64,000 nt of DNA from an uncultured Acidobacteriota bacterium (GTDB taxonomy: Bacteria; Acidobacteriota; Thermoanaerobaculia; UBA5066), in NCBI GenBank assembly GCA_903845115.1, contig CAIMWE010000022.1, positions 1 to 64,000 on the forward strand, written 5' to 3'. Below, one piece after another: positions 39,335-56,184 of this stretch (position 1 is its first letter; every line of letters starts with the position of its first letter). The translations under genes and the position numbers were made by a program. The notes under the pieces are model-generated. The model saw only the letters and a list, made by a program, of their open reading frames with translations, was not told where the DNA came from and did no database searches.

Positions 39335-40750
39335 GTGCCGCTCTCCCTTCAGAACACGCTTTCCCGCTCGCTCGAGACCTTCGTGCCGCTGGAGGAAGGC
39401 CGCATCCGCCTGTACACGTGCGGGCCGACCGTCTACAACCGGGTGCACATCGGAAACCTCCGGACGTTCGTCTGGGAGGACGTCATGTGCCGGACGTTCC
39501 GGTGGCTCGGCTACCGGACGACGCAGGTGATGAACCTGACCGACATCGACGACAAGACGATCCGGGGCGCGGTGGCCGAGGGCCTGTCGCTCCGCGAGTT
39601 CACCCAGAAACACGTCGAGACGTTCTTCCTGGACCTCGCGACGCTGGGAGTCGCTCCGGCCGACGTCTACCCGCGGGCGACGGACCACATCGAGGAGATG
39701 GTGGAGATCGTGCGGAAGCTCGAGGAGAGGGGACACACCTACGAGAGCGACGGGTCGGTCTGGTTCCGGATCGCCTCGTTCCCGGCCTACGGGCGCCTCT
39801 CCCGCGTCGACCCGAGCGCGATGAAGCGGGGCGCCCGCGTGGCCGACGACGAGTACGAGAAGGAGGACGTCCGCGACTTCGCGGTGTGGAAGGGGGCGAA
39901 GGAGGGGGAGCCCGACTCGGCGACCTGGACGACTCCGCTCGGCAGGGGACGGCCGGGCTGGCACCTGGAGTGCAGCGCGATGGCGATGAAGTACCTCGGC
40001 GAGACGCTCGACATCCACACCGGCGCCGTCGACAACATCTTTCCCCACCACGAGAACGAGATCGCCCAGAGCGAAGGGGCTACCGGGAAGGCGTTCGTCC
40101 GGACCTGGATGCACGCGGAGCACCTCGTCGTGGACGGGGAGAAGATGTCGAAGTCGAAGGGGAACTTCTTCACGCTTCCCGACCTCCTCGCCCGCGGCGC
40201 GTCCCCGCGGGCCATCCGGTACCTCCTCCTCTCCGTCCCGTACCGTCAGAAGCTGAACTTCACCTTCGACGCCCTGGCCGGAGCCGCCTCGGCCCTCGAG
40301 CGGCTCGAGTCGTTGGACCGGAGGCTCGAGGAGCGGTGCGGGGGCTCGGCCGGGACGGACGCGACGCCGGGCTTCGCCGCCAGGCTGGCCGGCTCTCTCG
40401 CGGGGTTCCGGGCCGGGCTCGAGGACGACCTCAACACCGCCGCCGCGCTCGGCGCCCTCTTCGGGGCGGTGAAGGAGACGAACGCCGACCTCGAGGCCGG
40501 GCGCCTGACCTCCGGGGACGCCGCCGCGGCCCGCGCCTTCCTGCGGCGGGCGGACGAGGTGCTCGGCGTCCTCCCGAAGGAGGAGCGGGCGTCGCTGGAC
40601 GCCGGGATCGAGGGGAAGATCGAGGCGCGGCAGGCCGCGCGCAAGCGGCGGGACTTCGCGGCCGCCGACGCGATCCGGGACGAGCTCCTCGCGGCCGGGA
40701 TCGTCCTGGAGGACACGCCGCAGGGGGTCCGGTGGAAACGAAAGCCTTGA
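39335..40750 (+). CDS. cysS: Cysteinyl-tRNA synthetase
   Basis: Charges tRNA-Cys. The 471-residue class I synthetase has YTCGPTVYNRVHIGNLRTF (HIGH-type motif and zinc Cys), the zinc-site GWHLECSAMAMKYLG, HHENEIAQSE and EKMSKSKGNF (KMSKS). A C-terminal helical anticodon-binding region follows. The start is GTG at 39335. Its stop codon lies inside the -35 element of the promoter for the next operon. Confidence 0.97.
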   Translation: MPLSLQNTLSRSLETFVPLEEGRIRLYTCGPTVYNRVHIGNLRTFVWEDVMCRTFRWLGYRTTQVMNLTDIDDKTIRGAVAEGLSLREFTQKHVETFFLDLATLGVAPADVYPRATDHIEEMVEIVRKLEERGHTYESDGSVWFRIASFPAYGRLSRVDPSAMKRGARVADDEYEKEDVRDFAVWKGAKEGEPDSATWTTPLGRGRPGWHLECSAMAMKYLGETLDIHTGAVDNIFPHHENEIAQSEGATGKAFVRTWMHAEHLVVDGEKMSKSKGNFFTLPDLLARGASPRAIRYLLLSVPYRQKLNFTFDALAGAASALERLESLDRRLEERCGGSAGTDATPGFAARLAGSLAGFRAGLEDDLNTAAALGALFGAVKETNADLEAGRLTSGDAAAARAFLRRADEVLGVLPKEERASLDAGIEGKIEARQAARKRRDFAAADAIRDELLAAGIVLEDTPQGVRWKRKP

Positions 40751-40775
40751 CTTCCGGGGGAAACCGGTTTTCAAT
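40747..40775 (+). promoter_or_regulatory. Promoter of the aro-his-trp operon
   Basis: TTGACT (40747-40752) is separated by 17 bases from TTCAAT (40770-40775). The -35 overlaps the cysS stop codon. The predicted transcription start, about seven bases past the -10, falls at or next to the ATG of the leader peptide at 40783. The leader mRNA is therefore probably leaderless. Confidence 0.68.
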
Positions 40776-40782
40776 CCGGCCG

Positions 40783-40824
40783 ATGTTTTCGGCGTCCCGG
40801 CACTGGCACGCTCACCACGCATAG
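40783..40824 (+). CDS. Histidine/tryptophan leader peptide of the attenuator
   Basis: A 13-codon frame encodes MFSASRHWHAHHA and stops at TAG. Four of thirteen codons are His and one is Trp, clustered at residues 7-12. It sits between a promoter and a strong terminator in front of an operon that makes His and Trp. That is the arrangement of classical ribosome-mediated attenuators such as those of his and trp operons. No Shine-Dalgarno is visible, consistent with a leaderless transcript. Ribosome stalling at scarce His-tRNA or Trp-tRNA is the inferred signal. Confidence 0.8.
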   Translation: MFSASRHWHAHHA

Positions 40825-40826
40825 CT

Positions 40827-40850
40827 CCGGCGGACGCTCGCGCCCGCCGG
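40827..40850 (+). other. Hairpin directly after the leader peptide
   Basis: CCGGCGG (40827-40833) pairs with CCGCCGG (40844-40850) over a ten-base loop. Its left arm starts three bases after the leader stop codon. It could be a pause hairpin or compete with upstream pairings such as GCGTCC (40792-40797) with GGACGC (40832-40837), which brackets the His codons. The exact regulatory pairing cannot be settled by eye. Confidence 0.45.
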
Positions 40851-40857
40851 CCGATAT

Positions 40858-40922
40858 CGGCTCGGAGGGCGGAAGGACGGACCAGGACGATCCCAAGCCC
40901 CCTCCCAGCCGGAGGGGGTTTT
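40858..40922 (+). promoter_or_regulatory. Attenuator: terminator and mutually exclusive antiterminator
   Basis: Terminator: CCCCCTCC (40898-40905) pairs with GGAGGGGG (40911-40918), loop CAGCC, followed by TTTTCGTTTT. Antiterminator: CGGCT-C-GGAGGG (40858-40869) pairs with CCCTCC-C-AGCCG (40900-40911), eleven pairs with one C-C mismatch. It uses the left arm of the terminator, so the two cannot coexist. The right arm of the terminator also holds the GGAGG that would serve as ribosome binding site for aroDE, so the fold may act on translation as well. Confidence 0.82.
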
Positions 40923-40926
40923 CGTT

Positions 40927-42411
40927 TTGGTCCTGACCGCGGAAAAGAGCTCCATCGTCGCCTCGTTCGTCCCGGCCTCGGTCCGGGAGGCGGTCGAGGC
41001 CTCGTCCTCGGTCCCGGCAGGAGCCGGGATCGTGGAGGTGCGGATGGACCGGTTCGGCGAGGCTCCCGACCTTCGGGCAATCCGGCGGGCGTTCGGGGGC
41101 GTGGCGCTGATGGCGACGGCGAGGTCGGTCGCCGAAGGGGGGGCGTTCTCGGGCGGGGCGGAGGAGCGCCGCCGGCTCCTGGGGGGAGCCGTGGACGCGG
41201 GCTTCGACTGGGTCGACGTCGAGTTCCGGTCCGGGCTGGCCCTCCTCTCGGACGTGCCTCCGGAGCGCACCGTCCTCTCCTTCCACGACGTTTCCGGCAT
41301 TCCCGCCGACCTCGCGGGCCTCCTCTCGGCGATGGAGGCGACCCGGGCGGCTCACGTCAAGATCGTGGCCACGGCGAGGGAGTCGGGCGACGCGCTGAAG
41401 CTCCTCGGTCTCCAGCAGGGGAGCCGGAGCGGCCGGCTCAGCTGTTTCGGGATGGGCGAGGCGGGAATCGCGACCCGGGCCCTCGCGCCGTACCTCGGCG
41501 CCCGGCTGGCGTTCGGCGCGCTCCGGGCCGGGGAATCGACCGCTCCGGGCCAGCTCCCGGCCGCCGACCTCCACGACGTCTACGGCGTCTCCCGGCCCCG
41601 GAGAGTCGAGTCGCTCTTCGCGATCTTCGGCGGCGTCGTCTCCCATTCGCTCTCCCCGGCGATCCACAACGCGTGCTTCGAGGCCTACGGGCTCCCCGCG
41701 CTCTACGTCCCCTTCGCCCTGCGATCGCTCCGGGAGGAATTCCGGCCCCTGGTCGCCGCCCTCGACGGTCTCGGCCTCCCCCTCCGGGGCGCCAGCGTCA
41801 CGGTCCCGTTCAAGGAGGAAGCGGCGCGGGAAACGACTCCGGCGGGGACGGGGGCCGTGAACACGCTCCTCCGGGAGGGCGGGGCCTTCTCTTCCGCGAA
41901 TACCGACCGCATCGCCATCGCCTCGTTCCTCCCGCCGCCCCCTCCCGGCGGGAGGGCCCTGGTGCTGGGGGCCGGGGGCACGGCGCGGGCGGCGCTGGAG
42001 GCGCTCCGGTCGACGGGCTGGGCCACGGAGGTGTTCAGCCGGACGGCCGCGAGGGCACGCGTCCTCGCGGCGGAGACCGGCGCGGCCTGCCTCGACGCCC
42101 TCGATCCGTCGGCGCGCCACGACGTCGTCTTCAACGCGACGCCGCTCGGGATGAGGGAGGGCGACCCTCTCCCTTGCCCGGAGGGGATGCTCGGGCCCGG
42201 CGTCCTCCTCATCGACGCCCCCTACCGCCCCGGCGGGACGGAGCTGGCCAGGACCGCCCGCCGGGCCGGAGCGGCCGTCCGCGACGGCTTCGACCTCCTC
42301 CTGGCGCAGGCGGCTCTCCAGGTGGCCCTGTTCACCGGTCGCCGCACGACCGTCGACGAGCTCAGATCCCGGCTGCCGGAGAGGATCCGGCGTCCGTTCG
42401 AGGTGAAGTGA
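40927..42411 (+). CDS. aroDE: Bifunctional 3-dehydroquinate dehydratase (type I)/shikimate dehydrogenase
   Basis: Catalyses two consecutive shikimate-pathway steps. Residues about 8-220 are a type I dehydroquinase with VEVRMDR, LSFHDV (His120) and VKIVATA (Schiff-base Lys145). Residues about 230-490 are shikimate dehydrogenase with GGVVSHSLSPAIHN, SVTVPFKEEA (Lys296), NTD (Asp327) and the NADP loop LGAGGTARAAL. AroD-AroE fusions are known from plants and chlamydiae. The TTG start lies at the end of the attenuator terminator, whose right arm supplies GGAGG. It is first in the operon and supplies precursor for chorismate and tryptophan. Confidence 0.92.
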   Translation: MVLTAEKSSIVASFVPASVREAVEASSSVPAGAGIVEVRMDRFGEAPDLRAIRRAFGGVALMATARSVAEGGAFSGGAEERRRLLGGAVDAGFDWVDVEFRSGLALLSDVPPERTVLSFHDVSGIPADLAGLLSAMEATRAAHVKIVATARESGDALKLLGLQQGSRSGRLSCFGMGEAGIATRALAPYLGARLAFGALRAGESTAPGQLPAADLHDVYGVSRPRRVESLFAIFGGVVSHSLSPAIHNACFEAYGLPALYVPFALRSLREEFRPLVAALDGLGLPLRGASVTVPFKEEAARETTPAGTGAVNTLLREGGAFSSANTDRIAIASFLPPPPPGGRALVLGAGGTARAALEALRSTGWATEVFSRTAARARVLAAETGAACLDALDPSARHDVVFNATPLGMREGDPLPCPEGMLGPGVLLIDAPYRPGGTELARTARRAGAAVRDGFDLLLAQAALQVALFTGRRTTVDELRSRLPERIRRPFEVK

Positions 42412-44058
42412 GTGAGACCAGACCCGAATCTTCCCCGGGGAGTCCAGGCGTTCCTCTTCGAATCGGCGGCCCGGCGCCGCCGTGCGGAGGAGACGGTGGT
42501 CTCCTCCCTCGAGAGGGCGGGGCTCTCCGAGGTGATCCTCCCCGTGCTCGACTTCGCCCGGCCGTACCAGGGGCTGGGAGCGGGCGACTCGCCGCTCTAC
42601 CAGTTCGTCGACCGGCAGGGAGAGCTGCTCGCGCTCCGCGCCGACTTCACCCCGATGGCGGCCCGGGTCCTGGCACCCAGGCTCGGCCAGCTGACCCTGC
42701 CGATCGAGTTCTTCTACCGCGGCGACGTCGTGCGCGACGAGGAGAGCGGTGTCGGGCGCCTGCGGGAGTTCTCGCAGGCCGGGGCCGAGTGCTACGGCGA
42801 CCCGCGGATCGAGGCGGACGAGCGGATGCTGACGCTGCTGATCGCCGCCCTCGCCCTCCCGGCGGACGCCTTCACGGTCAACCTCGGATACGCCGGCCTC
42901 CTCGAGAAGATCCTCTCGGCGGCGGCTCCGTCCCTCACCGCGGGCGAGGGGGCCAGGCTGTCGGCGCTCGTGCAGGCGGCGCGGGAACGGCGCGTGACGG
43001 AGGTGGAGGCGGCCCTCGTCCGTGCCGGGGCCAGGGGGGCGGCGGCGGCGGAGATCGCGGCCGCGCTCCTCTCGGGATTCGACCTCTCGTCGGGACTGTT
43101 CGCCCTTCCTGTCCTCGCGGAGGGAGCCGCGGCGCTCCGCCGCGCGGGCGAGGCCGCGAGAGGGGCCCTGCCCGGCCTCGAGGTCGTCGCGGACCTCGCC
43201 GGGACCCCGGAAGCGCCGTACTACACCGGGCTCACGTTCAGCGCCGTTGCGAGAGGCGTGGCGGCGCCGCTGGCCTCGGGAGGCCGGTACGATCTCCTCC
43301 TCGGACGGTTCGGACGGCCGTGCGCGGCGGTCGGCTTCTCCGTGGGGATCGAGACGCTGGCCGCGGCCCAGGAAGCGGTCGAGGAGGCGCGCCAGGGCGG
43401 AGGCGGCGTCCCGGCGCCGGAAGCGGCCCGTCGCCCCCTCCGGATCGCCTCCGGGAAGGGCCGGCTCCTCTCCCGGGCGCTCGCGGCGCTTCGAGAGGCC
43501 GGGGTCGACTTCGCGGAGCCCGACGGACGCCGGCTCCTCTTTCCCGACCGGTCCGGGAAGTTCGAGCTCCTCCTCCTGAAGGACGACGACGTGCCGACCT
43601 ACGTCGCGCACGGCGGCGCCGACCTCGGCTTCGTCGGGAGCGACCGGGTGGCCGAGTCGGGGGAGAAGGTCTTCACGCCCGTGTCGTTCCCGTTCGGCGC
43701 CTGCCGCCTCGCCCTGATCAAGAAGAAGGGGCGTCCGTTCGCGCCGAACGGCCACCCGGTCGTCGTCGGCACGAAGTACCGCAGGATGGCCCGGAAGTAC
43801 TTCGACGACAGGAGGATCGCGCACGAGATCGTCCCCCTGGCCGGGTCGGTGGAGCTGGCGGCGGCGCTCGGCCTGACCGACGTCGTGGTGGACCTGATCG
43901 AGACCGGCTCGACGATCGCGGCGAACGGCCTCGAGGAGATCGAGACGATCTTCCCGAGCAGCGCCACGATGATCGTGGGCCCCGCGGCGCTCGCCTCGCG
44001 GAGGCCGGAGATCGCGGCTCTCGTCGCGCGGCTCTCCGGGAAGGCGGTGCCGCGGTGA
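42412..44058 (+). CDS. hisZG: Fused ATP phosphoribosyltransferase regulatory and catalytic subunits (HisZ-HisG)
   Basis: First enzyme of histidine synthesis, joining ATP and PRPP. Residues 1-325 resemble HisZ, the HisRS-like regulatory subunit (RADFTPMAARV, FYRGDVVRDEE, ASGGRYDLLLGRFG, AVGFSVGIE). A Gly/Ala-rich linker follows. Residues about 341-548 are a short-form HisG catalytic subunit (LRIASGKGRLL, YVAHGGADLGFVGSDRV, VVDLIETGSTIAANGLEE). Short HisG needs HisZ for activity, and they are normally separate proteins forming a hetero-octamer. Here they are one 548-residue chain with no internal stop. The GTG start directly follows the aroDE stop. Confidence 0.88.
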   Translation: MRPDPNLPRGVQAFLFESAARRRRAEETVVSSLERAGLSEVILPVLDFARPYQGLGAGDSPLYQFVDRQGELLALRADFTPMAARVLAPRLGQLTLPIEFFYRGDVVRDEESGVGRLREFSQAGAECYGDPRIEADERMLTLLIAALALPADAFTVNLGYAGLLEKILSAAAPSLTAGEGARLSALVQAARERRVTEVEAALVRAGARGAAAAEIAAALLSGFDLSSGLFALPVLAEGAAALRRAGEAARGALPGLEVVADLAGTPEAPYYTGLTFSAVARGVAAPLASGGRYDLLLGRFGRPCAAVGFSVGIETLAAAQEAVEEARQGGGGVPAPEAARRPLRIASGKGRLLSRALAALREAGVDFAEPDGRRLLFPDRSGKFELLLLKDDDVPTYVAHGGADLGFVGSDRVAESGEKVFTPVSFPFGACRLALIKKKGRPFAPNGHPVVVGTKYRRMARKYFDDRRIAHEIVPLAGSVELAAALGLTDVVVDLIETGSTIAANGLEEIETIFPSSATMIVGPAALASRRPEIAALVARLSGKAVPR

Positions 44059-45335
44059 TCCGGGTCGTGGACGCCCTCTCCCCGGAAGGGAAGACCGCCC
44101 TTCGCGAGCTGGCCCTCGCGCGGCAGTCGCCCGATTTCGATTCCCTCCGCGAGGCGATGCCGATCGTGGAGAAGGTCCTTTCCGACCGGCGGCCGCCGAG
44201 GGCGCTCCTCGGGTACGTGAAGCAGCTCGACGGCGTGGAGCTGACGGCGAGGTCGCTCGTCGTCGACCCGTGCGCCGGTCCCCCGGTCGCTGCCGACCCC
44301 CGGTTCGTGCAGGCCTTCCGGCTGGCCCGGCGGCGCATCGCCGCCTACCACCGCCGGCAGAGGCCGCGCGGCTTCGCCTTCCGGGACGGCGCCGGCGTCT
44401 CCTTCCGGGAGAGGCCCGTCCCCCACGCGGCGGCCGGCGTCTACGTCCCCGGCGGCCGGGCGTTCTACCCGTCGTCCCTCCTGATGGGGGCCGTCCCCGC
44501 GATCGTGGCGGGAGTTGTGCGGGTGGTCCTCGCGACGCCTCCGCGGGCGTGGGCCGGGAGCGTCGAGCTGCGATGGGCGGCGAGGGAGCTGGGAATCCGC
44601 GAGGTCCTTCTCGCGGGAGGGGCCCACGGGATCGCTGGCCTGGCTTCCCATCTCGGCTGCACCAAGATCGTCGGCCCCGGGAACCGGTGGGTGGCCGCGG
44701 CCAAGCAGCTCGTGTCGTCCGTCGTCTCGATCGACCTCTTCGCGGGTCCGTCCGAGGTCCTGGTGGTCGCGTCGTCGGATGCGGAGCCGGAGCTGGTCGC
44801 CGCCGACCTCCTCGCCCAGGCCGAGCACGACCCGCGGGCGTCGTGCCTCCTCTTCACCGACTCGGCCCGGCTCGCGAAACGGGTGGACGCCGAGATCGTC
44901 GGGCAGATCGCGGACCTCCCGACGGCCGAGACCGCGCGCGCCTCTCTCGCCGCGCTCGGGCTGGCGGTCGTCTTCCCGAACCTCGCGGCGGCCGCGGCGG
45001 CCGCGAGGACGGTCGCCTCGGAGCACCTCCAGCTGCTCGGGAAGAAGGCCGAGAAGTACCGCGAGCCGCTCTCCGAGACGGCCGGAGCGCTCTTCTCCGG
45101 GAGCGCGACGCCGACGGCGTTCGGCGACTACCTGGCGGGACCGAACCACGTTCTGCCGACGGGAGGGGCGGGGCGGAGCTTCTCCGGCCTGTCGACCCGG
45201 GACTTCTACCGGTGGGGCCGGAGCGTGTCGTTCTCCGCTGCTGCCGCGAAGAAGCTCGCCGGGAGCGCGGCGACCCTGGCCCGCTTCGAGGGCCTGGTCG
45301 GACACGCCCGCTCGCTCGAGCGGAGGGGCCGGTGA
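44055..45335 (+). CDS. hisD: Histidinol dehydrogenase
   Basis: Last enzyme of the pathway, a zinc enzyme that oxidises histidinol twice to histidine with NAD. The GTG start overlaps the hisZG stop (GTGA) and gives 426 residues. Characteristic segments are [58 protein letters not shown] (zinc Gln and His), SEHLQL and [10 protein letters not shown]. Confidence 0.95.
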
Positions 45336-46438
45336 GCGCCCGCGGCGAAGGGGAGAAGGGGTCGGTGGCGGGGAAGGGCGCGCTCGCCGCCCGGCCCGAG
45401 ATCCGGGAGTTCCGGGCCTACGCGCTCGCCCCGCCGACCGGCATCGCCGTCCGGGCCAAGCTCGACTTCAACGAGTCGCCGTTCGACGTGCCCGACGAGC
45501 TGAAGGAGATCGTCCTCTCCCGCCTCGCGAGGCGCCGCTGGGCCCACTACCCGGAGTTCGGCGCGCCCCGGCTGACCGAGGCGATCGCCGCGGTTGCGGG
45601 GAGGCGTCCCGAGGAGGTCGTCGTCGGGAACGGCTCGGGCGAGCTCCTGCTCGCCGCCATCACGGTCTTCGCCGGGAACGGCGGCAGGCTCCTCCTGGCC
45701 CCGCCGACCTTCTCCCTCTACCGCCAGCTGGCGGTCCTGGCCGGCGCCTCGCTCGTGGAGGTCCCGCGCGGAGCGCCGGACTTCCCGGTCGACGAGGAGG
45801 GGTTCCTGCGGGCCGCGGAGGTCCCCGGGACGCTGCCGCTCGTCTGCTCGCCGAACAACCCGACCGGGAACGTGACGTCCACGGAGTTCCTGGAGCGGCT
45901 CTCTGCCGCCTCGGGCGTCGTCCTGGCCGACCAGGCGTACGTCGACTTCGCGGAACCGGGCGACGACGCGCGGCCTCTCCTCGACCGGACGGAGAACCTG
46001 ATCGTCTTCCGGACCCTCTCGAAGGCGTTCTCGGCGGCCGGGTTCCGGATCGGGTACGCCCTCGCGCCGGCACCGGTCGCCGCCGAGCTCCGGAAGGCGG
46101 TCCTGCCGTTCAGCGTCGACGCGGCGGCGGAGGAGCTGGCGGTCGCGCTCCTCTCGAACCCGGGCTTCTCGAGGCGGTCGGTCGACACGGTGCGCGAGGG
46201 GAGGGACCGTCTGGCGGCGGATCTCGCCGCGCTCGGCGCCGTCGTGGCGCCCTCCCGGTCGAATTTCCTCTTCTTCACGATTCCCGGCGCCGCGGGCTCC
46301 GAGATCGCCGCGGGCCTGGCGCGGCGCGGAGTCCTCGTCCGCGAGCTCTCCGCGGCGGCCGAGGGGTACCTGAGGGTGACCGTGGGCACCGCCGAGGAGA
46401 ACGGGATCTTCCTGGAAGCCCTGAAGGAGGCACGATGA
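45332..46438 (+). CDS. hisC: Histidinol-phosphate aminotransferase
   Basis: PLP-dependent class I/II aminotransferase converting imidazole acetol phosphate to histidinol phosphate. The 368-residue product shows LDFNESPFDVP, VVVGNGSGELL, CSPNNPTGN, LADQAYVDF and the PLP-lysine motif TLSKAFSAAGFRIGYA. The GTG overlaps the hisD stop, and the first 20 or so residues are Gly/Ala-rich. The stop overlaps hisB. Confidence 0.94.
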   Translation: MSARGEGEKGSVAGKGALAARPEIREFRAYALAPPTGIAVRAKLDFNESPFDVPDELKEIVLSRLARRRWAHYPEFGAPRLTEAIAAVAGRRPEEVVVGNGSGELLLAAITVFAGNGGRLLLAPPTFSLYRQLAVLAGASLVEVPRGAPDFPVDEEGFLRAAEVPGTLPLVCSPNNPTGNVTSTEFLERLSAASGVVLADQAYVDFAEPGDDARPLLDRTENLIVFRTLSKAFSAAGFRIGYALAPAPVAAELRKAVLPFSVDAAAEELAVALLSNPGFSRRSVDTVREGRDRLAADLAALGAVVAPSRSNFLFFTIPGAAGSEIAAGLARRGVLVRELSAAAEGYLRVTVGTAEENGIFLEALKEAR

Positions 46439-47031
46439 GCCGGTCCGCGACGGTCAAGCGGGTGACGAAGGAGACGAACGTGGAGGTGACCGTGGCCGTC
46501 GACGGCAGCGGCGCCTCGTCGGTGGAGACGCCGGTCGGGTTCCTCTCCCACATGCTCGACGCCCTGGCGAAGCACTCCGGGATGGACCTGACCGTCCGGG
46601 CGACGGGCGACGTGGAGATCGACAACCACCACACGGTGGAGGACGTCGGCCTCGCGTTCGGCGAGGCGCTCGACCGCGCCCTCGGCGACCGGGCCGGCAT
46701 CGCGCGGTTCGGCGCCGCCTACGTCCCGCTCGACGAGGCGCTGGCCCGCTCGGTGGTGGACCTCTCGGGGCGGCCCTACATCGTCTTCGAGTCGCCCGTC
46801 GACAAGGAGCTGCTCCTCGTGACGAACGACTTCCCGTTCGCGCTGGTGGAGGAGTTCTGGAAGTCGGCGGCCTTCCGCGGGAAGCTGAACCTCCACGTCG
46901 ACGTCCTCCGCGCGAAGAACGGGCACCACGCGGCCGAGGCGGTCTTCAAGTCGGCGGCGCGCGCGCTCCGGCAGGCGGTCGCGGTCGTCGGGACCGGCGT
47001 CCCGTCGACCAAGGGGAGCCTCACGGCATGA
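46435..47031 (+). CDS. hisB: Imidazoleglycerol-phosphate dehydratase (monofunctional HisB)
   Basis: Dehydrates imidazole glycerol phosphate. The 198-residue product has the manganese-binding motifs GFLSHMLDALAKHSGMDL, DNHHTVEDVG and NGHHAAEAVFK. It lacks the N-terminal phosphatase domain of the E. coli enzyme, so histidinol-phosphate phosphatase must be encoded elsewhere. The ATG overlaps hisC (ATGA) and the stop overlaps hisH. Confidence 0.96.
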   Translation: MSRSATVKRVTKETNVEVTVAVDGSGASSVETPVGFLSHMLDALAKHSGMDLTVRATGDVEIDNHHTVEDVGLAFGEALDRALGDRAGIARFGAAYVPLDEALARSVVDLSGRPYIVFESPVDKELLLVTNDFPFALVEEFWKSAAFRGKLNLHVDVLRAKNGHHAAEAVFKSAARALRQAVAVVGTGVPSTKGSLTA

Positions 47032-47645
47032 GCAAGGTCGTGGTCGTCGACTACGGCGTCGGGAACGTGGCGTCGGTCCGGCGCGGCTTCGAGCGGCTTG
47101 GAGCCGAGGTCCTCCTGACGGGAGATGCCGAGAAGGTCGCCGCCGCCGACCGCGTCGTCCTCCCCGGCGTCGGGGCGTTCGCCCCCGCGATGGAGAGCCT
47201 CGTGAAGAGCGGGCTCGACGCCGCGCTGAAGGCCGCCGCCGCGCGCGGCGGCCGCCTCCTCGGCCTCTGCCTCGGCTACCAGCTGCTCTTCGAGGAGAGC
47301 GAGGAGTTCGGGACGACGAGGGGTCTCGGGCTCCTGAAGGGGCGCGTCGTGGGGTTCCCGGCCGGGACCCGGACGCCGCACGTCGGCTGGAACCGGATCG
47401 TCCCGGCGCCTCGGCCCGAGCCGGCTCTCGTCCTCGCCGGGCTCCCGCCCGAGAGCTGGGTCTACTTCGTCCACTCGTTCCGGCCCGAGGGGGCGGAGGC
47501 CGCGGACGTCGCGGCCACGACCGACTACGGCGGGCCGTTCCCGTCGGTGGCCGAGAAGGGGAACGTCTGGGGCTGCCAGTTCCACCCGGAGAAATCGTCC
47601 GAGACGGGGCGCCAGATCCTCCGGAATTTCCTGGGGGCGGCGTGA
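47028..47645 (+). CDS. hisH: Imidazole glycerol phosphate synthase glutaminase subunit
   Basis: Glutamine amidotransferase that feeds ammonia to HisF. The nucleophile lies in [11 protein letters not shown], and the His-Glu pair in [30 protein letters not shown] is the typical N-terminus, and the 205-residue length is normal. Its partner HisF is the N-terminal domain of the fused protein two genes downstream. Confidence 0.95.
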
Positions 47646-48391
47646 GCGGCCTGAAGCTCTGGCCCTCCCTCGACCTGAAGGAGGGCCGGGTCGTCCGCCT
47701 CCTCCGCGGCGAGCTGGCGAACGTCACCGTCTACGACTCCTCGCCGGCCGCGGTGGCCAGGCGCTTCGCCGAGGAAGGGGCCGACGGGATTCACGTCGTC
47801 GACCTGGACGCGGCGTTCTCCCGCGGCGAGAACGGCGCGGTGATCCTGGAGATCGTCCGGGCGGCAGGCGCGGTCCCGGTCCAGGTGGGGGGCGGCGTCC
47901 GGAGCCTCCGGGCGGTCGAGGCCCTGCTCGCGGCCGGCGTGGCGCGGGTCGTCCTCGGGAGCCTGCCGTTCACCGACCCCGCGGCGTTCCAGGAGATCGC
48001 CGCGAGGCACGCGGCGAGGATCGTCGTGGCCCTCGACTGCAAGGAGGGCCGGCCGTCGATCCGCGGATGGACCGAGGACGCGGGGGCGGGGACGCTGGCC
48101 GACGCCGTTCCGCCGCTCGTCCGGGCGGGGATCGGGGCGCTCCTGGTCACCGACGTGTCGAAGGACGGCGCGATGGAAGGCCCCGGCCGGGCGCTCCTGG
48201 CCGAGGCCCGCCGCTGCTTCTCGGGCGAGGTGATCGCCTCCGGAGGGATCAGGGGCGAGGAGGACCTTCCGGCCGTGGACGAGCTCCTCGCGGGCGGGCC
48301 GCGCGGGGCGATCCTCGGGCGGGCCCTGCACGACGGGAAGACGAGCGTGGCGCGCCTCCGGGCGGTCCTCGCAGACGGAGGTGGCAAGTGA
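47642..48391 (+). CDS. hisA: Phosphoribosylformimino-5-aminoimidazole carboxamide ribotide isomerase
   Basis: TIM-barrel Amadori isomerase. The catalytic acids are in [13 protein letters not shown] (near the start) and VALDCKEG (middle), with the phosphate site VQVGGGVRS. The 249-residue length is normal. A separate TrpF domain exists at 53544, so this is not expected to be a dual PriA enzyme. The GTG overlaps hisH (GTGA). Confidence 0.93.
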
Positions 48392-49806
48392 CGGTGGCGG
48401 TCCGCGTGATCCCCTGCCTCGACATCGCTGGAGGGCGGGTCGTCAAGGGACTCCGATTCGAGAACCTCCGCGACGCCGGCGATCCGGTGGAGGCGGCGGC
48501 GCGGTACGAGCAAGAAGGGGCGGACGAGCTGACGTTCCTGGACATCACGGCCTCCCACGAGGAGCGGGGGACGCTCGTCCACCTCGTCGAGAGGGTCGCG
48601 TCGGTCCTGTCGATCCCGTTCACGGTCGGCGGCGGGGTCCGGAAGGTGGAGGACGCGGGAGCGTTGCTGGCCGCCGGGGCGGACCGGGTGACGGTCAACA
48701 CGGCCGCGCTCGCCGACCCGTCTCTCCTGACCCGGATCGCCGAGCGGTACGGCTCGCAATGCGTCGTCGTGGCGGTCGACGCGAAGAGGGTCGCGGGGAA
48801 CGGCACGACGCTCTTCCGGATCATGTCCCACGGCGGCCGCCGCGCGACCGACCGCGAGCTGGAGCCGTGGGTCGCCGAGGCGACGGCCGCCGGGGCGGGA
48901 GAGATCCTCCTCACGTCGGTCGACGCGGACGGCACCAAGGACGGCTTCGACCTCGAGATGCTGAAGGCGGCCCGGCGAGCCACCTCCGTCCCGATCGTGG
49001 CGTCGGGCGGGGCAGGCCGTCTCCACCACTTCGCCCCTCCCGTGCTCGAGGCCGGGGCCGACGCGGTCCTCGCGGCGTCGGTCTTCCACGACCGGATCTA
49101 CTCGATCGGCGAGGTGAAGAGGGCGCTGGCCGCGGCGGGGGTGCGCGTCCGTCCGGTCCTCGACCCCCTCGCGGCCGCGGCGTTCGACTCCCGCGGCCTC
49201 GTCCCCGTGGTCGTGAGGGACGTCCGCTCGGGGGCGGTGCTGATGCTCGCGTGGGCGAACGCCGAGGCGCTCGAGAAGACCCGGTCCACCGGCTTCAGCC
49301 ACTTCTTCAGCCGGTCGCGGAACGCTCTCTGGCTGAAGGGGGAGACGTCGGGCCACGTCCAGCGGGTCGTCTCGATCTCGCTCGACTGCGACCGCGACGC
49401 CGTCCTCTACGACGTCGTCGCGGACGGGCCCGCCTGCCACACGGGCGCCACGACCTGCTTCGAGGCGCCCGGGGCGCCGGTCGTCGAGCTGGCCGAGGCC
49501 CCGGCCCCACGGACGATCGACCTGGCGCCGCTCTTTGCAATCGTCGCGGAGCGCCTCGCGCAGCCCGAGGAGGGGTCGTACACGAACAAGCTCCTCGAGA
49601 AGGGCGTCGGCCGCATCGCCCAGAAGGTCGGCGAGGAGGGGGTCGAGACGGCGCTGGCCGCCGTGACGGCCGGGGACGACGAGCTGGCGGGGGAGATCGC
49701 CGACCTCCTCTACCACGTGGTCGTCCTGATGGCCGCGCGGGGCCTGGAGCCGGCCCGGGTCGAAGGGAAGCTGGAATCCCGCCGCGGAAAGAGGAGGGAC
49801 AAGTGA
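48388..49806 (+). CDS. hisFIE: Trifunctional HisF-HisI-HisE fusion protein
   Basis: Three histidine enzymes in one 472-residue chain. Residues 1-252 are HisF cyclase ([15 protein letters not shown] with Asp12, VVAVDAKR with Asp131, phosphate loops FTVGGGVR and VASGGAG). Residues about 266-360 are HisI, phosphoribosyl-AMP cyclohydrolase ([20 protein letters not shown], metal residues in LDCDRDAVL and [12 protein letters not shown]). Residues about 382-465 are HisE, the pyrophosphohydrolase ([23 protein letters not shown]). HisI-HisE fusions are common; attachment to HisF is unusual. The frame is open throughout. The GTG overlaps hisA and the stop overlaps trpE. Confidence 0.92.
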
Positions 49807-51173
49807 AGCTGGTGGTCCTGGAACGCCCGGCCGACATGACGACGCCGGTGGCGGTGATGCGGACCCTGCTCGAGGACGAGGCGCCCGCGTTCCTCCTGGA
49901 GTCGGTCGAGCAGGGGGAGCGGATCGCCCGCTGGTCCTTCCTCGGGACGGCCCCGTCGCGCGAGATCTCCGGGAGGGACGGGGACCCGTTCGACCTCCTC
50001 CGCTCGGTCCCGCACGAGGCCCCGTCCCCGGCCGGCGAGGACCTCCCTCCGTTCACCGGCGGCGCGGTCGGCTACCTCGGGTACGACGCCGTCCGCCGCC
50101 TCGAACGGCTTCCGTCGCTCCGGCCCGACCCGGTCGGCCTTCCGGACGCCTGGTTCGGCGTCTTCGACCGGATCATCGCGTTCGACCACGTGAAGCACCG
50201 GCTCCTCTTCCTGGCTCACGCCGAGCCGGGCGGCGAGAAGGCGGCGGCGGAAGGGCTCGAGGAGCTGGCCCGCCGGGTCGACGCGGGAAGGACGCGGCGG
50301 CCCGGCGCGCCAGCGGACACCCGTCTCGCGTGGACCGAGTCGCTCCCGCGCGGGCCGTTCATGGACGCGGTCCGGGAGGCGAAGGAGCACATCCTGGCGG
50401 GCGACATCTTCCAGGTCGTCCTCTCCCGGCGCTGGTCGGCCCCCTACCCGTCCGATCCCTTCCCGCTCTACCGGGCGCTGCGCCGGGTCAGCCCGTCCCC
50501 CTACCAGTACTACATCCGGACGCCGGACGCCGTCCTGCTCGGCGCGTCGCCGGAACGGCTGGTCCGGGCCGAGAACCTCGGCGACCGGATCGTGGTGGAG
50601 ACGGTGCCGCTCGCGGGCACGCGCCTCCGCGGCAAGGACCGGGCCGAGGACCTCGCGCTCGAGGCCGACCTCCTGTCGGACGAGAAGGAGCGGGCCGAGC
50701 ACGTCATGCTCGTCGACCTGGGGCGGAACGACCTGGGCCGCGTCTCGGTGCCCGGATCGGTCGAGGTGAAGGAGTTCTTCTCGGTGGAGCGCTTCTCCCA
50801 CGTGATGCACCTGGCGTCACGGGTCTTCGGGACTCTCTCGCCGGGGAAGGACGCCACCGACGCCCTCGCCGCGACGTTCCCGGCCGGGACTCTCTCCGGT
50901 GCCCCGAAGATCCGGGCGATGGAGATCATCGAGGAGCTCGAGCCGGTCCGGCGCGGGGCCTACGGAGGCGCCATCGGCTACCTCGACTTCGCGGGGAACC
51001 TGGACATGGCGATCGCCATCCGGACGGCGGTGGTGACGGGGGGCGTCCTCCACGTCCAGGCGGGCGCCGGAATCGTGGCCGACTCGGTCCCGGAGAAGGA
51101 AGCCGACGAGTGCGAGAGCAAGGCGCGCGCCCTGATGGGAGCCGTCGAGCGGAGCGGGGAGTACGCAGGATGA
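49803..51173 (+). CDS. trpE: Anthranilate synthase component I
   Basis: Converts chorismate to anthranilate with ammonia from TrpG. The 456-residue product has the tryptophan-binding [19 protein letters not shown] near residue 30. The chorismate-binding core follows ([66 protein letters not shown]). The LLES motif supports TrpE over PabB and implies feedback inhibition by tryptophan. The GTG overlaps the hisFIE stop, physically joining the his and trp blocks. Confidence 0.95.
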
Positions 51174-51733
51174 TCCTCGTCGTCGACAACTACGACTCGT
51201 TCACGTTCAACCTCGTGCAGTACCTCGCGCGCCTCGACCCGGACGTCCAGGTGGTCCGGAACGACGCCGAGACGGCCGCGGCGCTCCTCGCGCGGAAACC
51301 CTCCCGGATCGTCATCTCGCCCGGCCCCGGCCGTCCGGAAGATGCGGGCGTGTCGTGTGAGCTGATCCGGACGAGCGGGACGACGCCGCTCCTGGGCGTC
51401 TGCCTCGGCCACCAGGCGATCGGCCACGTCTTCGGCGGGAAGGTGGTCCGGGCCGAGAAGCCGATGCACGGCAAGACCTCCGAGGTGAGCCACGGCGGCA
51501 CGGGCCTCTTCCGGGGCGTCCCGAACCCGTTCACCGCGACGCGATACCACTCCCTCGTCGTCGATCCCGCTTCGGTCCCCCCGGAGCTGGAGGTGACGGC
51601 CGAGACCGGCGGCGTCGTGATGGCGCTCCGGCACCGCGTCCGTCCGGTCGTGGGCGTGCAGTTCCACCCCGAGTCGATCCTGACCCGGGACGGCGAGACG
51701 ATGCTCCGGAACTTCGTCGAGGGGGTCCTCTGA
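51170..51733 (+). CDS. trpG: Anthranilate synthase glutamine amidotransferase component
   Basis: Supplies ammonia to TrpE. The 187-residue product has [26 protein letters not shown], the nucleophile loop [10 protein letters not shown] and [10 protein letters not shown]. It is not fused to TrpD. The ATG overlaps trpE (ATGA), and the stop overlaps the likely CTG start of trpD. Confidence 0.95.
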
Positions 51734-52773
51734 GCGCGCCGGTCAGCGCCGTCCGGGAAGCGCTTCGGGCGGTGACCCACGGCGGCCGGCTGTCGCGCGA
51801 GCGGTCCCGGACCGCGTTCGAGGCGATCGTGGCCGGCACCGAGCCGGAGGCGGTGGTCGCCGGGCTGCTGTCGGCCCTCGCGGTCCTCGGCGAGTCGGCG
51901 GAGGAGCTGGCCGGAGTCGTCGACGTGCTTTCCGCGCGGGTCTCGGCGCCGCCGGTCGAGCCGGAGCTCGCGGCCCGGGCGATCGACGTCTGCGGTACGG
52001 GGGGCGACGCGCTCGGGACGTTCAACATCTCGACCGCCGCCGCCCTGGTCGTGGCCGGCGCGGGAGTGCCGGTCGCCAAGCACGGCGGCCGGGCGGTCTC
52101 GTCGTCGTGCGGGTCGGCGGACGTCCTGGCCGAGCTGGGGGTGAGGATCGACATGCCGCCCGTCACCGCCGCGAAGGCCCTCCGGGAGGCCGGGATCACG
52201 TTCCTCTTCGCGCCGGTCTACCACGGGGCGATGAAGCTGGTCGCGCCGCTCCGGAAGGAGCTGGGGGTCCGGACGATCTTCAACCTGGCGGGTCCCCTCG
52301 CGAATCCCCTCGGCGTCCGGCGGCAGATCGTGGGGGTCGACCGGCCGACCCGGCTGCCGGCGGTGGCGGGGACCCTCGCGCTGCGCGGCGTGGAGCGGGC
52401 CTTCGTCTTCTCGAACGAGACGGGAGGGGACGAGATCCTCCCGTGCGGGGAGACGATCGTGACCGAGCTGAAGGACGGGGCGCTCGAGACCTTCCGCCTC
52501 ACGGCGTTCGACTTCGGGATGCCGGAGCGGGCCGTGGTCCAGCTGGCTGGCGGGGACGCCCCGACGAACGCGGGGATCCTCCGCGCGATCCTCGGAGGCG
52601 AGGCGGGCCCCGGCCGCGAGACGGTCCTGATGAACGCGGCGGCGGCGCTCGTGGTGGCCGGGGCGGCGGCCTCGTTCAAGGACGGCGTTGGCATGGCCGC
52701 CGCCTCCATCGACGGGGGAGCGGCGGCGCGTGCGCTCGAGACCCTCGTCGCCGTGTCGAAGGACGCCGGATGA
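51730..52773 (+). CDS. trpD: Anthranilate phosphoribosyltransferase
   Basis: Joins anthranilate and PRPP. It shows [46 protein letters not shown] and [12 protein letters not shown]. The first standard start in frame, GTG at 51772, would begin inside the first helix (THGGRLS). Reading back to CTG at 51730 restores the helix ([11 protein letters not shown]) and gives 347 residues. It also makes a CTGA overlap with trpG, matching the other junctions. I therefore place the start at CTG with moderate confidence; the alternative is 51772. Confidence 0.88.
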
Positions 52774-54173
52774 CGGGGACGATCCTGGACCGGATCCTGG
52801 ACGCGAAGCGGCGGCGACTCGGAGACGGGGAGTTCGCGCCGGCGCCGACGGCTCCCGCGCTCGCGCCGGACGGGGCCCGTTTCGAATCGGCGCTCCGGGC
52901 GGCTCCTGCCGTCATCGCGGAGATCAAGCACCGCTCCCCGTCGGCGGGGGAGATCCTCCCCGGGGCGGCGGCCCGGGTCGAGGCCGTCGCGAACGGCTAT
53001 CGGCGGGGCGGGGCCGCGGCGCTGTCGATCGTGATCGAGCAGGACTTCTTCGGCGGCGACCCGGCCTGGCTTCCCCGAGCGAAGGCGGCCTCGGGGCTCC
53101 CGGTCCTGATGAAGGACTTCATCGTGGACGAGAGGCAGGTCGAATTCGCGGCGTCGATCGGAGCCGACGCGATTCTCCTGATCGTTTGCGCCCTCGACCG
53201 GGCCGCGCTCTCCCGTCTCCACCGCCGGGCGCTCGAGCTGGGCCTCGCGGTCCTCGTGGAGGCGCATGACGAGGACGAGGCCCGGAGCGCCGTGGACGCC
53301 GGCGCCCGGATCGTGGGAGTCAACGCCCGGGACCTCCGGACGTTTCGCGTCGACCTCGACCGGATGGCGCGCCTCGGCGAGGCGATGCCGACGGGAGTCG
53401 TCCGGGTCGCCGAGAGCGGGATCGGGGGCGTGGACGACGTGCGGCGGCTCTCCCGTTCCGGCTACGGGGCCTTCCTCGTCGGCGAGTCCCTCCTCCGGAG
53501 CGGCGACGTGGCCAGAGGGGTCCGCCTCCTCCGGGGGAAGGGGACCACGGAAGTGAAGGTCTGCGGCCTCACCCGCGAGGAGGACCTGAAGGCCTGCCGC
53601 GAGCTGGGCGTCGACCACGTCGGTCTCAACTTCTCCCCGCTCTCTCCTCGCCGGCTGTCGACCCGGGACGGAGCGCGGCTCCGGGGCGCCGCGGAAGGGT
53701 TCTCGCGGGTGGTCGCCGTCTTCGCCGGGAATCCGGCGGAGGAGATCGAGGAGATCGTCCGGGCGGTCCGTCCCGACGTCCTCCAGCTGACGGACCCGCC
53801 GGAGGGGGACCTGGCCAGGGAGTGGCCGAAGCCGGTCTGGCAGGTCGTCCACGTGACGGACTCGCTCGCCGTCCCCGGGTGGCCCGGGGAGCGCCTGCTC
53901 TTCGACACGGGGGGCAAGGGGAGTCCGGGGGGAACGGGAGAGACGTTCGACTGGCGGCACTTCCAGGAGCGGAGGCCCTCGCGGCCGTTCGTCCTGGCCG
54001 GGGGGATCCGTCCGGAGAACGCCGCCGAGGCCGTACGTCTGGTCCGCCCTTGGGGGGTGGACGTCGCGTCCGGCGTGGAGTCGGCCCCCGGAATCAAGGA
54101 CCGCGAGAAGATCGGGCGGTTCGTCAGGGAGGTCCGGTCGGTCCCGGACCTCCCGGTTGAGGAGCAGCGATGA
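52770..54173 (+). CDS. trpCF: Bifunctional indole-3-glycerol phosphate synthase/phosphoribosylanthranilate isomerase
   Basis: Two TIM barrels in one 467-residue chain. Residues 1-255 are TrpC ([11 protein letters not shown] with Lys53, [11 protein letters not shown] with Lys115, [20 protein letters not shown]). Residues about 260-460 are TrpF (VKVCGLTRE with Cys265, [40 protein letters not shown]). The order matches the enterobacterial TrpC-TrpF fusion. It starts with ATG overlapping trpD (ATGA). Confidence 0.94.
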
Positions 54174-55378
54174 CCCTTTCGAACGGAAAGACAGGTCCCG
54201 ACGCGCGGGGGCGGTTCGGGGAGTACGGCGGGCGCTACGTGCCGGAGACCCTGATGGCGCCTCTGGAAGAGCTGGACCGGGCGTGGCGGCAGGCCCGGCA
54301 CGACCCGTCCTTCCGGAAGGAGCTGAAGGACCTCCTCGCGAACTACGCCGGGCGGCCGACGCCCGTCACGGTCGCCAGGAGGCTGACCGAGTCTCTCGGG
54401 GGCGCGCAGATCCTCCTGAAGCGCGAGGACCTCCTCCACACGGGGGCCCACAAGATCAACAACGCCCTCGGACAGGTCCTCCTCGCGAAGCGGATGGGGA
54501 AGGAGCGGATCATCGCGGAGACCGGCGCCGGACAGCACGGCGTGGCGACGGCGACCGCGTGCGCCCTCTTCGGCCTGAAGTGCGTCGTCTACATGGGGAG
54601 CGTGGACGTCGCGCGGCAGTCGCCGAACGTCTTCCGGATGAAGCTGCTGGGAGCGGAGGTCGTCCCCGTGGAAGGGGGTTCGAAGACGCTGAAGGACGCG
54701 ATCAACGAGGCGATGCGGGACTGGGTCTCGTCGTTCGCGTCGACGCACTACGTCCTCGGCTCGGTCCTCGGCCCGCACCCGTTCCCCGAGATGGTCCGGA
54801 CGTTCCACTCGGTCATCGGCCAGGAGGCGCTCGCGCAGACGGCGAAGATCCTGCACGGCCGGCCGGACCTCCTCGTCGCCTGCGTGGGGGGCGGGTCCAA
54901 CGCGATCGGCCTCTTCCACGCGTTCCTGAAATACCCGGACGTCGGGATGGTGGGCGTGGAGGCCGGCGGCCGCTCGTTCGCCCCGGGCGAGCACGCGGCC
55001 AGGTTCGGGCCCGGGCGCGTGGGGGTCCTCCACGGGACGAGGACCCTCCTCCTGCAGGACGAAGGGGGACAGGTCCTTCCGACCCACTCGATCTCGGCGG
55101 GGCTCGACTATCCCGCCGTGGGACCCGAGCACGCCTTCCTCGGCGGCGAGGGACGCGTGAAGTACGTGTCGGTGACCGACGGCGACGCGCTCGACGCGTT
55201 CCACCGGCTGGCGGAGCTGGAGGGGATCCTCCCGGCTCTGGAGAGCGCGCACGCGGTGGCGTGGGCGATCCAGGTCGCGCCGGCGCTCGGAAAGGGAAAG
55301 GTCGTCCTGGTGAACCTGTCGGGGCGGGGGGACAAGGACGTTCCCCAGATCGCCGCGATGGAAGGGGTGACGACGTGA
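54170..55378 (+). CDS. trpB: Tryptophan synthase beta chain
   Basis: PLP enzyme joining indole and serine. The 402-residue product has [34 protein letters not shown] (PLP lysine), [35 protein letters not shown] and [18 protein letters not shown]. It is the standard TrpB1 type that partners TrpA. The ATG overlaps trpCF and the stop overlaps trpA. Confidence 0.97.
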
Positions 55379-56184
55379 GGGGGCGGATCGGTTCGGCCTT
55401 TGCCAAGGCGGCGGCGGAGGGCCGCGCCGCCCTCGTGGCCTTCATCGAGGCGGGGGATCCCGACGCGGCGACCTCGGGCCGGATCCTCTCCGCGCTCTTC
55501 GACGCGGGCGCCGACGTCGTGGAGCTCGGCGTGCCGTTCAGCGACCCGATCGCCGACGGAGCGGTGATCCAGCGGGCCAGCGAGCGCGCCCTGGCGGCCG
55601 GCGGCGGTCTCGCCGCCTCGCTCGACCTGGCGGCTTCCTACCGCGCTTCCGGGGGCTCCGGAGCGCTGGTCCTCTTCTCCTATTCCAACCCGATCCTCGC
55701 GATGGGAGAAGCCGAGTTCACCTCCCGGGCGAGCGCCGCCGGCGTCGACGGCGTCCTCGTGACCGACCTGCCTCCGGAGGAGGGACGGCCTTTCGCGGCG
55801 ATCCTCCGGAGCGCCAGGATCGACCCCATCTACCTCCTCGCGCCCAGCTCGCCGAGGGCGAGGATCCGGAAGGCCGCCTCGCTTTCCAGAGGGTTCGTCT
55901 ACCTGGTTTCCCGTGCGGGCGTCACCGGGGCCAGGGCAGAGCTCCCGGGGGACCTCCCGGAGCTGGCCGCCCGCGTGAAGAAGGAGGTCCGGCGTCTCCC
56001 GGTGGCCATCGGCTTCGGGATCTCGACCCCCGGGCAGGTGGCCTCGGCCGCCCGTCTCGCGGACGGCGTCGTCGTCGGGAGCGCGCTCGTCCGCGCGGTG
56101 GAGGTGGCGGCCGCGGCCGGCGAAGACTGCGTGGCCGCCGCCTCGGGGCTCGTCCGCTCGCTCGTGGCGGCCGCGGGGCGCTGA
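55375..56184 (+). CDS. trpA: Tryptophan synthase alpha chain
   Basis: Cleaves indole-3-glycerol phosphate to indole, which is channelled to TrpB. The 269-residue product has [25 protein letters not shown] (catalytic Glu and Asp), [35 protein letters not shown] and the phosphate loop [11 protein letters not shown]. The GTG overlaps trpB (GTGA). It is the last recognisable pathway gene of the operon; no terminator follows before the next frame. Confidence 0.96.

Follow-up and report, generated by a model that had tools for sequence, protein, structure and literature searches.

A candidate histidine-and-tryptophan attenuator ahead of an aroDE-his-trp operon in Thermoanaerobaculia

Genes at the locus

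The window, a 64,000-nucleotide stretch from an Acidobacteriota genome (class Thermoanaerobaculia) of 5.85 Mb in 305 contigs, carries a tightly packed run of genes of about 15 kb on a single strand (40927–56184, forward). The first gene, aroDE (40927–42411), has a TTG start and encodes a type I dehydroquinase and shikimate dehydrogenase (Pfam PF01487, PF08501). It is followed by a hisZG fusion (42412–44058; PF13393 and PF01634), by hisD, hisC, hisB, hisH, hisA and a hisFIE fusion (44055–49806; Pfam domain search), and by trpE, trpG, trpD, a trpCF fusion, trpB and trpA (49830–56184; trpE start approximate). Pfam domains identified trpE and trpCF, and other sequence evidence identified trpG, trpD, trpB and trpA. 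From gene spacing and the shared strand, we infer that the run is one transcript. A preliminary description of this DNA had proposed an operon that makes both His and Trp, and both gene sets do lie behind aroDE on one strand. The fused genes give the single polypeptides HisZ-HisG, HisF-HisI-HisE (48382–49806) and TrpC-TrpF (52770–54173); the joining of the regulatory subunit HisZ to a short HisG looks unusual.

Promoter-like hexamers TTGACT (40747–40752) and TTCAAT (40770–40775), spaced by 17 bp, precede the run on the same strand, and the first overlaps the cysS stop codon. The frame MFSASRHWHAHHA (40783–40824, forward), 13 codons and a TAG, starts 7 nt past the −10 hexamer. It holds four His codons and one Trp codon, with the control codons His-Trp-His-Ala-His-His at 40801–40818. 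These hexamers, their spacing and the 13-codon frame with its HWHAHH cluster had been described before and were found as described. No Shine-Dalgarno sequence precedes the frame in the window or in family relatives. Because the ATG lies only 7 nt past the −10 hexamer, the frame is probably leaderless, and transcription would begin on the ATG or no more than a few bases away from it. The spacing is similar by eye in family relatives, and other families have longer 5′ stretches.

Conservation in the family

The family set comprises 12 further genomes with a readable upstream region (G001–G011, G013). The relatives named in the analysis as a whole are Acidobacteriota, mostly of the class Thermoanaerobaculia, and nearly all are metagenome-assembled genomes. 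In all 12 family genomes, the leader is kept directly before aroDE, TTGAC(A/T) occupies the same place, and the promoter position and the alternative pairings described below recur; cysS lies upstream wherever the contig extends there. Leaders are 13 or 14 codons long, and the G007 leader starts with GTG. Their N-termini vary (MRRFQVR, MTFAPVL, MANVAQLS, MFLTS) and their C-terminal ends are constant (WHWHHG, WHWHHA, HWHVHHS, WHWHWHHG), with HWHxHH, WHWHH or WHWHWHH in 12/12. Each relative has a hairpin and U-run at the start of aroDE or immediately ahead of it. Retention of the His and Trp codons in relatives that keep the operon was a check named in the preliminary description; they are retained in all 12 family members and in the merged his-trp operons of the class.

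Leader codons and operon genes across the class

Across the class, leaders were read upstream of operons of three kinds (his, his-trp and aroDE-trp), one leader per genome, and tabulated by hand. Linkage was read from sequence and judged on trpG, trpD, trpCF and trpB matches, with trpE searched separately in frame. Among merged his-trp operons, 35/35 leaders contain Trp together with two or more His codons, counted in the last 14 residues, and 30 of these have two or three Trp codons. All 14 leaders of his-only operons have at least two His codons; 10 have no Trp and 4 have a single Trp. This class includes G065 and G067, in which trpE is on a contig without adjoining his genes; G063 and G064 are counted as his operons, with their hisF beside trp elsewhere. 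Leaders of aroDE-trp operons contain WW or WWW in 6/6 cases, and none has two His codons (at most one). Fisher's test gave about 1e-7 for each leader contrast, with relatedness left in.

Five genomes have split his and aroDE-trp operons, each with a leader: MNLRTSARHHHRHHHLV and MNASLRLWWWPSSE in G023, ..RTHHHHHHVM and MRATSNWWWYC in G026, MSTNFVQQHHHHHI and MNASRTSWWFLRS in G062, ..HTWHHHHHHVM and MNAPRNWWWSRRS in G061, and ..RQHHHLAWHHRP and ..DRYLWWWRSRC in G066. At two loci (L062, L076) where aroDE is separate from his-trp, the WW..HHH leader is found ahead of hisZ; the leader therefore accompanies his-trp rather than aroDE. A HisD tree requires five changes between linked and unlinked states. 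His-only lineages L087, L061 and L069 with L079 are surrounded in the tree by linked relatives, and their leaders lack Trp codons; L061 (VVVHHHPVI) falls beside L090 (WAWRTHHHHAVS) with 99/98 support. The two deepest his-only rows are long branches and were not relied on. In three nested lineages, then, Trp codons were lost where trp became unlinked. Leader codons thus track the genes of the operon, which is strong evidence for what the peptide senses. One exception is G045 (L148), with an HHHH leader without Trp before aroDE-hisD-trpE-trpG. The partial operons of G030 (aroDE-hisD-trp; ..RHRDGWRWPVRR) and G029 (aroDE-hisD-hisA-trp; ..TAHGWWNEL) have leaders with both amino acids. These three genomes were excluded from the leader counts.

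The same survey bears on a His-only attenuator, in which the Trp codon would be incidental and the trp genes under some other control, such as an internal promoter. The window leader, with four His codons to one Trp, would fit this, as would the single Trp in 4 his-only leaders of the class. It is nevertheless quite unlikely, given that every merged leader has Trp, mostly more than once, that the nested his-only lineages lack it, and that separate trp operons have WWW leaders of their own.

Alternative RNA pairings

Five segments with alternative pairings follow the frame on the forward strand. Segment A (40828–40836), directly after the leader stop codon, pairs with B (40841–40853) through 40841–40849. 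All of B can instead pair with C (40858–40871), which otherwise pairs with D (40898–40910) as an antiterminator. D pairs alternatively with E (40911–40918), which with the U-run TTTTCGTTTT (40919–40928) makes an intrinsic terminator. In the window, the antiterminator joins 40859–40868 to 40901–40910 with 9/10 pairs and one C.C mismatch, and the terminator stem joins 40898–40905 to 40911–40918, followed by the U-run. The antiterminator and terminator had been placed correctly to within 1–3 bases in the preliminary description.

Segments for pair counts were set by hand because a MAFFT whole-spacer alignment misplaced variable loops. Across the family, C:D is paired in 90% of cells with two-sided changes in 5/10 pairs, D:E in 98.7% with two-sided changes in 3/7 pairs, and A:B in 95.6% with two-sided changes in 8/9 pairs (omitting one bulged T in G006). 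For C:D and D:E, 0/500 shuffles reached the observed percentage paired or covariation score; the shuffles keep relatedness in. C:D dropped to ≤62% in a sliding control. As an example of compensation, the window pairs GGCT with AGCC and most relatives pair GGTCC with GGACC. The covariation that had been suggested as a check is thus present in both terminator and antiterminator for the hand-set segments. Beyond the antiterminator already described, the conserved A:B and B:C pairings refine the model with a layer that would couple ribosome position to the antiterminator.

Covariation also weighs on the proposal that the leader acts mainly through translational coupling or as a trans-acting peptide or small RNA, with the hairpins an ordinary cysS terminator and RNA protection. 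Some leader peptides do act in trans, such as peTrpL of Sinorhizobium meliloti (PMC7298713). This reading is very unlikely: C:D covaries, yet a plain terminator needs no antiterminator; a promoter-like site follows the end of the cysS coding sequence, and about 100 nt separate the leader stop from the terminator; and codon content tracks the amino acids that the following genes make. A random short frame that happens to precede a constitutive terminator can practically be dismissed, for although short frames are common in GC-rich DNA, this is the sole one with five of six consecutive codons His or Trp among 785 start-to-stop frames in the window (8–45 codons, both strands; the leader frame has three in-frame starts), and its conservation throughout the family, and in altered forms throughout the class, already refutes the idea. 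For the reality of the leader, conservation is stronger evidence than rarity of the frame in the window.

Folding and proposed mechanism

When the 14 nt after the stop codon were masked, D:E formed and C:D did not in 13/13 family sequences (B:C with D:E). Leaving A available and ending the RNA before E gave A:B and C:D in most family genomes. Even when A is free, the terminator is favoured in full-length equilibrium folds, and a ribosome on the stop codon abolished C:D before E was made in some sequences only. Equilibrium folding as proof of a switch was therefore not decisive, and under the model the choice between terminator and antiterminator must be kinetic. Known attenuators likewise choose kinetically between folds. 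When a ribosome was modelled as stalled with the Trp codon or the adjacent His codon in its A site, C:D stood at 0.6–0.99 in the family; for stalls on the last His codons, the modelled outcome hinges on the assumed footprint edge. A sixth segment, within the leader frame and pairing with A as a classical protector would, was considered and set aside, since the window and the relative nearest to it have such a segment but it is not conserved. Since the protector is not conserved, untranslated leader RNA is predicted to read through.

The aroDE-his-trp operon is very probably controlled by ribosome-mediated transcription attenuation, through a leader peptide of dual specificity. Transcription would start at the leader ATG or within a few bases of it, and a ribosome would load on the leaderless end and translate the 13 codons. 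When charged tRNA for His or for Trp runs short, the ribosome would stall on the HWHxHH codons and leave A free. A:B would then form, C would be available for D as D emerges, and with C:D in place and no terminator, polymerase would read into the operon. If both tRNAs are charged, the ribosome would reach the stop codon and cover A, B:C and D:E would form, and transcription would end before aroDE. Because delay at the Trp codon or the neighbouring His codons would leave A free and C:D likely, the leader would act as an OR gate, with a shortage of either product turning both pathways on.

The model rests on sequence, conservation, covariation of A:B, C:D and D:E, the mutually exclusive pairings, and the agreement of leader codons with genes; start site, translation, stalling and read-through are what we infer from these. 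Features expected of an attenuator are present: a short leader frame rich in the operon's product amino acids, computed mutually exclusive terminator and antiterminator with compensatory change, an intrinsic terminator with a U-run between leader and first gene, and leader codons that change with the operon genes, except in G045. The preliminary reading as a His-plus-Trp attenuator is thereby supported by codons, covariation and gene content, and is modified by the probably leaderless frame and the A:B/B:C layer. A broader form, in which leaderless, default-on, five-segment His-OR-Trp attenuators occur across Thermoanaerobaculia, gain and lose codons in step with pathway genes, and evolve their specificity by codon changes as operons fuse and split, is likely.

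Comparison with known systems

Leader-peptide attenuation is classical. Like the window leader, hisL and trpL of Escherichia coli and Salmonella have a short product-rich frame, mutually exclusive hairpins and an intrinsic terminator before the first gene; unlike it, each serves one amino acid and has a ribosome-binding site, and the protector segment that they have is not conserved in the window family. The E. coli thr and ilvGMEDA leaders carry codons for two or three amino acids, which are related products of one branched pathway, whereas His and Trp are an unrelated pair. The aromatic supraoperon of Bacillus subtilis joins aro, trp and one his-type gene under attenuation control; unlike the window operon, it uses the TRAP protein, which binds tryptophan, and has no leader peptide and no complete his pathway. 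To our knowledge, known leader peptides respond to one amino acid or to a group made by shared enzymes.

Searches with the Rfam His_leader and Trp_leader models gave no match in the window at gathering or relaxed thresholds, and nothing relevant came from Rfam. The candidate switch works like these families but is not a member of them as modelled. The Corynebacterium glutamicum ilvBNC leader MTIIRLVVVTARRLP covers several amino acids, begins its coding frame one nt away from where transcription starts, and belongs to an attenuator with a three-hairpin model (PMC11857589). Its Ile, Val and Leu are made by shared enzymes, whereas the window leader would join two separate pathways. The trpL of S. 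meliloti has a 14-codon leader on an RNA that begins with its ATG (PMC7298713), and differs from the window leader in sensing Trp only, for a separate trpE(G) operon. A search of open-access literature, with most subscription papers outside it, returned nothing relevant on a His-plus-Trp leader, fused his-trp operons, or leaders or attenuators of Thermoanaerobaculia. Attenuation, multi-amino-acid leaders and leaderless leader frames are thus already known, and what appears new is an OR gate fed by two amino acids that are unrelated. A single leader would respond to end products from a pair of unrelated pathways, and the literature found describes no amino-acid attenuator for this class. Its fused, split and partly linked operons are a natural experiment on regulatory rewiring, codon by codon.

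Other observations at related loci

In G042 (L145) and G036 (L150), leaders before aroDE read MNAMGYRTYGHWYWFHTP(G/E)RR, with Tyr and Phe beside His and Trp. Tyr or Phe genes as the cause of these YGHWYWFH leaders were looked for by eye after trpA in G042, and none was recognised. Five loci (L152, L153, L154, L157 and L158, of G019, G030, G027, G021 and G054, respectively) have hisD beside trp genes without other his genes nearby, and aroDE is also present in some; this hisD may have another use, or the remaining his pathway may lie elsewhere. Searches for hisD in G014–G018 (same order, families f2 and f3) gave no match at E 1e-20, and these lineages may lack histidine synthesis. L138 and L139 (G063, G064) have a hisF and trp cluster split from hisZGDCBHA, and a His/Trp leader was not found for that cluster. 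In L067, L080 and L095, short direct repeats (ACGGAGGTCGCACGGAGTGCGAC-like) fall after the attenuator and ahead of the aroDE coding match, and L133 and L159 have similar repeats, GAGTCCTGAGT.
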